In this document: piece by piece, positions 4,570 through 46,131 of the stretch
How the letters are laid out: the number at the start of each line of letters is the position of its first letter
Position numbering within the stretch: position 1 is the first letter of the stretch
Assembly: GCA_012800795.1 (NCBI GenBank)
Contig: JAAZIQ010000055.1
Coordinates: 1-46,131 of the forward strand
Source of the DNA: Bacillota bacterium
Lineage (GTDB): Bacteria; Bacillota; Dethiobacteria; Dethiobacterales; Dethiobacteraceae
Length of the DNA stretch: 46,131 nucleotides
Reading direction: 5' to 3'
The notes under the pieces: model-generated
Database searches by the model: none
Told to the model about the DNA's origin: nothing
What the model saw: the letters and a program-made list of their open reading frames with translations, nothing else
Translations under genes and position numbers: made by a program

Positions 4570-7500
4570 ATGAAAAGTTTATTAAGTGAAATTATAGATA
4601 TACAGCAGTTAAAAGCAATTTTTAGCGGCCTGGAAAAGGCGGCACGCAGTCAACTTATTTATGGCCTTGATGGAAGTGCCAGACATATGGTTATGGCCGC
4701 CATCTACAATTATATGCAGAAGCCGCTGCTGATTGTAACGGCTGACACGCTTCAGGCAGGTAAAGTTTATGAGGATTTATTGGCTGTTTTTGGTGATGAT
4801 GAAGTTTTTCTGTTTCCTGGTAAAGAGCTTTTATATTACCATGATTTATATTCAGAAAGCGGCGATGCTTCAGTCCAGCGCATCAGTGTGATGAAGCAAT
4901 TAGCCACGGGCAGGCGGATTATTGTTGTTACCAGCATTTTAGGCCTGATTGAAAAAATGTGCCCGCTTGCGCCGTGGCAAAATGCTTGTTTTAGCGTGAA
5001 AGTAGGACAGGAGCTTGATTTAGAAGAATTGGTCAGTAAAATAATTGCTGCTGGCTATGAACGTGTTGATCTGGTGGAGCTGCCCGGGCAGCTTTCTGTG
5101 CGGGGAGGGATACTTGATGTTTTCCCCTTGGGAGAAACAGCGCCTGTCCGCCTGGAGTTTTTTGGCGATTATATAGATTCCATACGCACTTTTGACCCTG
5201 GTACTCAACGTTCTGCAAAAAACTTATCCGCTCTGCAGTTGGCTCCGGCAAAAGAATTGGTGATTGAAAAATCAGCACGGCAGCGAGCAATTGCAGCGCT
5301 GGAGGCAGAGCAAAAGAAGCTGACCGAACAAGTCAAAAAAAATGGTGCCGGGGAACGGCTGTTGGAAAAGTTAACGGAACATTTAGAAAAAATACGTCAC
5401 AATATATATTTTCCCTGTATTGAACAATATTTGCTATATTTTTACCCTCAGCCGGCCGGTTTATTGGATTGGTTTCCGGATGATGCGCTTCTTTTTCTCA
5501 ATGACCCGTTGCGCTGCCAGCAGGCGGTGGAACAGCTAACCAATGAGTTGGGAGAGATGCAAAGCACTCTTTTTGCCCAGGGAGAACTTTTGGCGCAGCA
5601 AGTGGAATTAATCTGGGATTATGAGCAAATACTAACAAAAACAAAAAAGCAAATAGTTGCCTTTTCTGTTTTTACGCAGAAGGGCAGTGCTGTTAAATAC
5701 AGGCATGCAGTCTCACTGTCTGCAAAACCGGTACCGCGCTTTTTGGGCCAATGGGATCTTTTTGCTCAAGAGGTCAGTCACTGGCGTCGGCAGGGATATC
5801 GCGTTGCTATTTTAACATCTACACGTCAGCGCAGTTCCGGCATTATTGAAATATTGGCTGAACACCAAATCCCAAGTGTTTATACTTTGTCGCGGCCTGA
5901 GCTTGTACCCCGTAGTGTTACTTTAATGCACGGCACCTTGGAAAGCGGTTTTGTGCTGCCGGAGATTAAACTTGCTGTTCTAACTGAACAGGATATTTTA
6001 CCACAAAGAAAAAAGCAACGACGTTTGAAGCAAAAGGAAGGCGTCCGCATAGGTGATTACCACGAGCTGCAGGTGGGCGATTTTGTGGTTCATGAGCAGC
6101 ATGGTATTGGGCAGTATTTGGGGCTGCGTACGCTTGAAGTAGGTGGTGTCCAGCGCGATTATCTTTATATTCAGTATGCTGGTAATGATAAGCTTTATAT
6201 TCCCATTGAGCAGTTGGATGTGGTGCGAAAATATATTGGCGTTGAAGGGAAACGTCCCAAACTATCATCATTAGGAGGCGGTGAATGGAGCCGCATTAAA
6301 GCACGTGTACAGTCATCGGTACAGGAGCTGGCAAAGGAGCTTTTGGCCCTTTATGCGGCACGTGAGACAGAAGAAGGACACGCTTTTTCACCCGACAGCA
6401 GTTGGCAGCGGGAATTTGAAGATTCTTTTGCCTTTGAGGAAACACCTGACCAGCTGCAGGCGATTAAGGAAATAAAGGCAGATATGGAAAAAAGCCGGCC
6501 CATGGACCGCCTGTTATGTGGGGACGTGGGATATGGTAAAACAGAGGTGGCACTGCGTGCTGCTTTTAAAGCTATTATGGATGGGATGCAGGTGGCATTT
6601 CTCGTGCCTACCACTATTTTGGCTCAGCAGCATTATCATACTTTTACAGAGCGACTGGCCAATTTCCCGGTAAAAATAGCTATCTTAAGCCGCTTCCAAA
6701 GCAAAAAAGAACAAAAAGAAACTATCCAAGGGCTTAAAGATGGCACAATAGATTTGGTGGTGGGAACACACCGGCTCCTTTCCAAAGATGTTCGTTTTCG
6801 TAATTTAGGGTTACTTGTTGTTGACGAGGAACAGCGCTTTGGTGTCCGCCATAAAGAGAAAATAAAAATGCTGAAAAAAAATGTTGATGTGCTGACTATG
6901 ACTGCCACACCCATTCCACGTACACTGCATATGGCCTTGGTGGGCGTTCGTGATATGAGTGTCATAGAAACACCGCCTGAGGATCGTTACCCTATTCAGA
7001 CATATGTCTTAGAGTATTCTGATACTTTAATTCGTGAAGCCATTATACGGGAAATGGGGCGAGGCGGTCAGGTTTACTTTGTGCATAATCGTGTACAATC
7101 TATAGACAGGTGGGCGGCTAAACTGCGCAAGCTGGTTCCAGAAGCTAGAATCGCTGTTGGCCATGGCCAGATGCCGGAAGAGCAGCTGGAAAAAGTAATG
7201 ATTGATTTTATGGAAGGCGAATATGATGTGCTGTTATCTACAACTATTGTGGAAGCCGGTTTAGATATCCCTAATGTAAACACAATCATTATTCATGATG
7301 CCGATAAATTTGGGTTGGCACAGCTTTATCAGTTAAGGGGGCGTGTTGGCCGGTCTAACCGAATTGCTTACTGCTATTTAACCTACCAAAAAGATAAAGT
7401 TCTCTCTGAAGTGGCAGAAAAAAGGCTACAAGCCATTAAGGAATTTACTGAATTGGGTTCCGGCTTTAAAATTGCTCTGCGAGATCTGGAAATCCGCGGT

Positions 7501-45231: not shown

Positions 45232-45720
45232 ATGCAGTTAACGCAAAAAGAGAGAATGCTTTTAGAGGATCAGAAGAAACATGAAGAGATCTGTATAAAA
45301 AAATACACGGAAGCAGCGCAAAAAGCTAATGACCCTCAACTTGCACAGTTATTTCAAAGTTATGCGGACCAAGAGCGACAGCATTATCAAACAATAGAAC
45401 AGATTTTAAACGGGCAGATCCCCAATATGCAGCAGCAACAAGGCCAGCAAGGCAGCCAGCAAGGTGGAGAGGCGGGGCAGCAGGCAGGACAGAATATGTC
45501 AAATTCCAATACCGGTTTAGTTTCCCAGGCAGATGCGGATCTTTGCAATGATTTGCTGATGACGGAGAAATATGTCTCAGGTACTTATGATACGGCAATT
45601 TTTGAATGTAAAAATTCTCAAATCCGCCAGGTACTAAACCATATTCAAAAGGAAGAACAACAGCACGGTGAAGGTATTTTTAACTATATGCAGCAAAAAG
45701 GGATGTATCAGCCCCAGTAA
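45232..45720 (+). CDS. CotF-type spore coat protein
   Basis: A 162-residue protein built of two ferritin-like coat-F helical hairpins: a first pair (about 5-63, KERMLLEDQKKHEEICIKKY and ADQERQHYQTIEQILNG) and a second (about 104-160, DADLCNDLLMTEKYVSGTYD and VLNHIQKEEQQHGEGIFNYM). They are joined by a Gln/Gly-rich low-complexity linker (about 67-90). CotF-family proteins are spore coat components in Bacillus and Clostridia. The ATG at 45232, 7 nt after AGGAGGTG, is the true start; the frame itself extends to 45133. Its ribosome binding site lies in a strong hairpin. Confidence 0.88.
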   Translation: MQLTQKERMLLEDQKKHEEICIKKYTEAAQKANDPQLAQLFQSYADQERQHYQTIEQILNGQIPNMQQQQGQQGSQQGGEAGQQAGQNMSNSNTGLVSQADADLCNDLLMTEKYVSGTYDTAIFECKNSQIRQVLNHIQKEEQQHGEGIFNYMQQKGMYQPQ

Positions 45721-45760: not shown

Positions 45761-45912
45761 ATGAAACTTTTTCTTGCAGTGGGCTGAACATAAGCAAGCA
45801 AAGTGTTGTTTGCTTCGATTTTTGTCAGTACGCGCTACTGTTTTTCTTACAGCCAATGGGTAAAGACCTGGATAACAATAATGGACCTAATAAAGAAACG
45901 CAAATCCAACAA
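45756..45912. other. Non-coding gap between the two matching hairpins
   Basis: No gene is seen. One weak hairpin AAGCAAA-N6-TTTGCTT occurs at 45796-45815, followed by a short T-run. The rest is unremarkable spacer. Confidence 0.5.
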
Positions 45913-45947
45913 AAAACCACGGGAAGCTTAGAAAGTCCCGTGGTTTT
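45911..45947 (-). terminator. Terminator of the tRNA-Pro gene (minus strand)
   Basis: On the minus strand AAAACCACGGGA / TCCCGTGGTTTT (45947-45936 with 45924-45913) runs into T6. It lies 12 nt past the tRNA CCA end and was presumably its original terminator. Confidence 0.75.
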
Positions 45948-45959
45948 CGTATTCTTTGC

Positions 45960-46004
45960 TGGTCGGAGCGACAGGATTTGAACCTGCGACCTCTTGGTCC
46001 CGAA
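45960..46004 (-). pseudogene. 3' fragment of tRNA-Pro(CGG), probable integration-site remnant
   Basis: Read on the minus strand, the 45 nt are in order: anticodon loop TTCGGGA (anticodon CGG), anticodon 3' stem CCAAG, variable loop AGGTC, T-stem GCAGG, T-loop TTCAAAT, T-stem CCTGT, acceptor 3' strand CGCTCCG, A and encoded CCA. The sequence 5' of the loop (CGTTC) does not pair with CCAAG, and no D-arm or 5' acceptor strand is present. The similarity therefore stops exactly at the anticodon loop. This is where many tyrosine recombinases cross over, and a displaced 3' end is left at one side of the element. Confidence 0.85.
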
Positions 46005-46015
46005 GAACGTGGGAG

Positions 46016-46117
46016 ATATTCCCTTTAGTTCCTCTATATGCCCTCAAGTCCCTATTTTACTGCATTCCTTACACTGGCAAGTCCTACTATATTCCCTTGC
46101 GTGGAATCATATTCCCT
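46016..46117 (+). repeat. Three direct copies of ATATTCCCT, possible integrase arm sites
   Basis: ATATTCCCT occurs at 46016-46024, 46089-46097 and 46109-46117, all in one orientation, beginning 12 bp past the tRNA fragment. Short direct repeats beside an att core are typical arm-type binding sites of tyrosine integrases. No coding frame is evident in 46005-46131. Confidence 0.6.
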
Positions 46118-46131
46118 CTGGAAGTGTGTAC

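Follow-up and report, generated by a model that had tools for sequence, protein, structure and literature searches.

The right end of a 46,131-nt contig from an uncultured Bacillota bacterium is, we conclude with high confidence, the attR of an integrative mobile element. The window, that is, the whole 46,131-nt stretch analyzed in this study, is the entire contig C64 of G000, a 1.67-Mb metagenome-assembled genome (MAG) of 99 contigs and ~90% completeness. The conclusion is drawn from a tRNA-Pro(CGG) remnant, its junction with foreign DNA, the empty sites of relatives, the same end in other hosts, and an integrase at the far end in relatives.

A truncated tRNA-Pro(CGG) gene borders foreign DNA

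The features of the junction are as follows.

45911..45947, minus strand: original tRNA-Pro(CGG) terminator, hairpin plus T-run
45960..46004, minus strand: 3′ remnant of tRNA-Pro(CGG) from anticodon loop to CCA, displaced; forms the host side of the predicted attR
45987..46004, minus strand: tRNA stretch common to the rebuilt tRNA and the remnant (attL/attR) in genome G061, TTCGGGACCAAGAGGNCG
46005..46131, no strand: predicted right-hand end of the element, truncated where the contig stops; other MAGs have related ends

The 45-nt piece at 45960-46004, TTCGGGACCAAGAGGTCGCAGGTTCAAATCCTGTCGCTCCGACCA, has the same form as the corresponding part of intact tRNA-Pro(CGG) genes in relatives, and the CCACGGGA...TCCCGTGG hairpin behind it also trails intact tRNA-Pro genes there, as the same kind of terminator. 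ARAGORN called no tRNA anywhere in the window, indicating that the gene is truncated, which confirmed the description in an earlier note of a partial tRNA-Pro(CGG) beside its own terminator. Between the tRNA piece and the contig end lie 127 bp of foreign DNA; the element end sequence is GGGAATATCTCCCACGTTC.

An intact tRNA-Pro(CGG) was not found in the G000 assembly, in which the only tRNA-Pro isoacceptors found were GGG and TGG, as expected if a rebuilt copy sits in an assembly gap; annotation of this MAG could thus falsely suggest loss of the tRNA-Pro(CGG) gene. The tyrosine recombinases found in G000 were XerC/XerD only.

The same locus is uninterrupted in relatives

The last host gene before the tRNA provided the anchor for comparison with relatives.

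45232..45720, plus strand: Coat_F/rubrerythrin-like gene, conserved neighbor of the empty site

In the same-genus genome G001, four genes matching those on the left of the junction (70-88% protein identity) lead up to an uninterrupted tRNA-Pro(CGG). The host genes at the window's right-hand side, of which the Coat_F/rubrerythrin-like gene is the last, also precede an uninterrupted tRNA-Pro(CGG) in G007 and G016, where the order around the tRNA agrees with that of G001; in all three genomes the terminator is of the same kind as the window's. Contigs C21 and C11 of G001 overlap exactly by 127 bp, joining both flanks, and its right flank consists of a short Spo0E-like gene (judged by eye) and then a DUF2229 gene. 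Past the tRNA in G007 are a DUF2229/HGD-D gene, a second such gene and a BadF/BadG ATPase gene, and the same gene kinds follow, by sequence, in G016. The intact locus in these three genomes is the empty site, which thus occurs in the same genus and family, so that the uninterrupted locus which the earlier note had proposed to look for in relatives was indeed found.

The right-flank orthologue in G000 is at the end of contig C69, and the element is therefore expected in the gap between C64 and C69. The two contigs are not joined by sequence, as C69 ends, before reaching the tRNA, in a dispersed repeat that is found at many G000 contig ends and looks like the end of an insertion sequence.

This dispersed repeat, starting GTTAGTGTAAAATTACTATAGG and occurring in two related forms, occupies positions 8690-8786 of C69 and was also seen at the starts or ends of C3, C5, C37, C58, C65, C73, C76, C91, C92, and C94; it resembles the terminus of a family of insertion sequences at which the G000 assembly breaks. 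A similar end is present on the left of the window (positions 1-80, TGATAGTGTCAACCCACTGTAGGG on the minus strand), where a related insertion sequence may bound the contig.

The same element end occurs in other MAGs

A junction-spanning pattern search returned four Bacillota/Clostridiales MAGs with this end, G060 (JAAYHB010000021), G061 (LFTH01000120), G062 (JAAZDU010000173), and, as a more distant case, G063 (JAAZIG010000052), which agrees with G043 in its contig numbers and lengths. Most of the 58 genome matches of the pattern were in Streptomyces and were set aside as chance without inspection, and the loci L080 and L102, among the pattern matches inspected, contained no tRNA. A further case, G120, came from a search of 399 genomes of the phylum. 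Identity of the element end to the window ranged from 91% in G060, the best, down to ~65-70% in G120, and G043 shares the part of the element end nearest the junction. In G060, G061, G062, and G120, the foreign end is joined at the same tRNA position, in the anticodon loop, and the junction is followed by each host's own T-arm and terminator. Similarity extends over the element end and the tRNA piece; past that piece, where the host terminators begin, it is only 33-42%. The foreign end was absent from the empty-site relatives. Viral contigs gave no match to the junction pattern, to the integrase or to a 369-aa protein encoded by the G060 element (see below). The empty sites and the recurrence of this end at one tRNA position in other hosts supported the proposal of the earlier note that a tyrosine integrase had inserted an element at the anticodon loop.

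G060 and G120 appear to fall outside the class of G000; for G060 this is judged from a search of that class with a G060 protein, which did not return G060, and for G120 from its being given as of the same phylum only.

These comparisons also bear on whether the host contig could have been misjoined, via the tRNA sequence, to the element end of another genome. Such a chimera would exploit the tRNA stretch, the only sequence common to host and element, and similar element ends in several MAGs are the kind of repeat at which metagenome assemblies break. Against it, the terminator and flank behind the window's tRNA piece belong to the host, the element end has no identical counterpart among those found (at most 91%), and G000 retains no intact tRNA-Pro(CGG). 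A shared misassembly could hardly be expected to create one junction in several genomes whose flanks differ, and we regard a chimera as very improbable.

Two kinds of repeats mark the element end

The earlier note had described three direct repeats next to the tRNA piece, unique to this place, as arm-type sites. The following copies were located.

46016..46024, plus strand: ATATTCCCT, copy 1, exact, conserved across element ends
46036..46044, plus strand: degenerate copy with one mismatch, ATATGCCCT
46089..46097, plus strand: ATATTCCCT, copy 2, exact, conserved across element ends
46109..46117, plus strand: ATATTCCCT, copy 3, exact, conserved across element ends
46124..46131, minus strand: GTACACAC, half of a conserved TACACAC pair (the first), probable integrase arm site; related elements have pairs at both ends

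Exactly three exact copies of ATATTCCCT exist in the 46-kb window, in line with the note, and all are within 102 bp at this end; ~0.54 copies are expected per whole window, and three anywhere were reached in 1 of 100 shuffles. The repeat positions were conserved at 27/27 in G060, 26/27 in G061, and 22/27 in G120, vs. 88%, 73%, and 63%, respectively, for the rest of the end. The ATATTCCCT repeats are thus real and more conserved than the surrounding DNA, while their reading as arm-type sites fared less well, as copies were seen at this element end only. A putative role in binding an excisionase or accessory protein is reasonable.

TACACAC pairs, whose members start 11-12 bp apart, are better candidates for integrase arm sites than ATATTCCCT, judging from their positions, because they occur at both element ends, whereas ATATTCCCT occurs at one end only. 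Both ends carry them in G061 and G004, as do the integrase end of a tRNA-Leu element in G005 and the far end in G060 and G120; G043 has near-copies. In 215 kb made up of the element-bearing loci and the window, five pairs were counted against 0.0 expected, each of them at an element end or next to a displaced tRNA piece. In the window's own pair, the contig breaks off within the first half, and the second half lies outside it.

A TACACAC pair was also observed at positions 745-783 of locus L193 (G267:C1), between prophage-like-looking genes and another RNA-gene-like 3′ fragment, GGGGTTCGACCCCGGTTTCCGGCACCA, which suggests that the same type of arm site is used with other targets.

The far end carries a rebuilt tRNA and an integrase in relatives

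In G061, an intact tRNA-Pro(CGG) is followed by a TACACAC pair and then by a tyrosine integrase that the contig end cuts down to its C-terminal 71 aa. The T-arm of this intact tRNA (GCGGG...CCCGC) differs from that of the displaced piece (GTGTG...CACAT), indicating that the 3′ half was supplied by the element. The stretch common to attL and attR in G061 is short, beginning at the anticodon loop and ending where the T-arm begins; it bounds the crossover, which lies within it, most likely in the anticodon loop. In G043, an intact tRNA-Pro(GGG) is followed by a 404-aa integrase that is 94% identical to the G061 fragment over 68 aa, and in G004 a related ~6.8 kb island is bounded by an intact tRNA-Pro(TGG) on one side and a displaced piece on the other; its integrase shares 72% identity with the G043 protein. 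The integrases beside tRNA-Pro in G061, G043, and G004 are of one clade (72-94% identical in the aligned parts), which appears to use tRNA-Pro genes with three anticodons (CGG, GGG, and TGG). The integrase beside tRNA-Leu(CAG) in G005 is ~45% identical. The rebuilt tRNA that the earlier note had placed at the far end and the integrase that it had proposed to look for are visible in G061, G043, and the related G004 element, and are unassembled in G000.

The anticodon loop is a usual site of tRNA introns. The break in the window falls in this loop, as it would if the foreign DNA were a self-splicing or archaeal-type intron rather than the end of a mobile element. This reading was rejected, and we give it practically no weight: no 5′ exon is nearby, the same end in G060 extends 1.6 kb into protein genes, and in relatives the tRNA is rebuilt by an alternative 3′ half, with an integrase besides.

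A more serious, if still unlikely, alternative to a complete element is an old insertion that has lost its integrase and most of its genes and left only the tRNA piece and the end. Decayed loci of this kind do exist among the relatives, as in G012:C6, G017:C87, and G006:C68 an intact tRNA-Pro and a displaced piece are ~1-2 kb apart and the integrase is broken or missing. The end in the window, however, is 91% identical to that of another genome and has its repeats intact, which fits a recent and shared element, and the break of the contig at a sequence common to other MAGs also fits a complete copy rather than a decayed remnant.

The tRNA-Pro genes of this class are insertion hot spots, as noted in G012:C6, G017:C87, G006:C68, G003:C22, G004:C23, G012:C48, and G047:C21, where an intact tRNA-Pro or a second tRNA-Pro 3′ piece lies 1-14 kb from the displaced one; some of these loci have broken integrases or toxin-antitoxin-like small genes (judged by eye) in between.

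Genes carried by the element in relatives

The first 1.6 kb of the element in G060 encode a 369-aa protein of unknown function and a 65-aa HTH_17 protein that is phage-excisionase-like.

L107 (G060:C12), 5131-6240: gene of the 369-aa protein, at the element end opposite the integrase

The 369-aa protein had no relative in phage records, no PHROG and no Pfam family above the cut-off. G120 encodes an HTH protein 66% identical to that of G060 and a 587-aa protein with 42% identity to a G003 protein whose gene neighbors a primase-like gene. The related element of G005 leads, over ~13.5 kb, from an integrase gene past a Prim-Pol gene to an excisionase-like gene and a 369-aa-like gene; Prim-Pol was absent from G000, G001, and G060-G063. 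These gene contents suggest an integrative element with an integrase, an excisionase-like protein, and replication genes. As for the genomic island that the earlier note had expected to the right, the same end in other MAGs speaks for it, while the presence of a complete element in G000, its cargo, and its mobility are inferred.

Distant relatives of the 369-aa family (26-30% identity) were observed in G003, G005, and G030, adjoining excisionase-like or HTH genes and primase or replication genes.

Discussion

The preferred reading of the contig end as attR implies the following course of events. A tyrosine integrase would have recombined the attP of the element with the anticodon loop of tRNA-Pro(CGG), so that a replacement 3′ half supplied by the element rebuilt a working tRNA on the opposite side, leaving the original 3′ half and its terminator separated from it at what is now the end of the window. 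The 127 bp past the tRNA piece would be the element's own end, with repeats that are probably protein-binding sites. By analogy with relatives, the integrase gene would lie next to the rebuilt tRNA and point towards it, while the window-side end would encode an excisionase-like HTH protein and, as in G060, possibly also the 369-aa protein; related elements add a replication module of phage or plasmid type.

Insertion at the anticodon loop is a long-known class, and the finding is ordinary in kind. Islander comprises 2083 islands with anticodon-centered sites (subsite A; PMC4383910), and tRNA fragments left by integration have been described as pervasive (PMC9897764). Similar to the Islander islands, a displaced 3′ tRNA fragment at one end and a predicted anticodon-loop crossover were found here, along with the empty locus in relatives and, again in relatives, a tyrosine integrase beside the rebuilt tRNA; unlike them, the island itself is unassembled in G000. 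The integrase of the relatives shares its PF00589 plus Phage_int_SAM_3 layout with that of Flavonifractor phage Castelnaud, its best annotated phage relative (39.5% identical over 91%), but no phage record exceeded 60% identity, in contrast to the 72-94% within the tRNA-Pro clade. Like phage satellites and integrative mobilizable elements, the related elements combine an integrase, an excisionase-like HTH protein, and Prim-Pol or replication-type genes in ~7-14 kb; a PICI-like gene set was only partly seen, in related elements, while the body of the G000 element is unseen.

What appears to be new, from these sequence comparisons, is the tRNA-Pro-specific integrase clade, its isoacceptor range, and the spread of the element end across classes; new, too, is the lack of the element body in the MAGs, where contigs break off at the ends it shares or close to them. 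We put at even chances the broader proposal that a small element, with an integrase clade dedicated to the anticodon loop of all three tRNA-Pro isoacceptors, moves between classes and is routinely lost from MAGs as its near-identical copies break assemblies at its ends. Comparison among hosts can confirm an insertion site from a tRNA fragment at the edge of a contig, even with the island unassembled. It further points to a mobile element common to classes of uncultured Bacillota, and raises the question of how the crossover tolerates three different anticodon loops.
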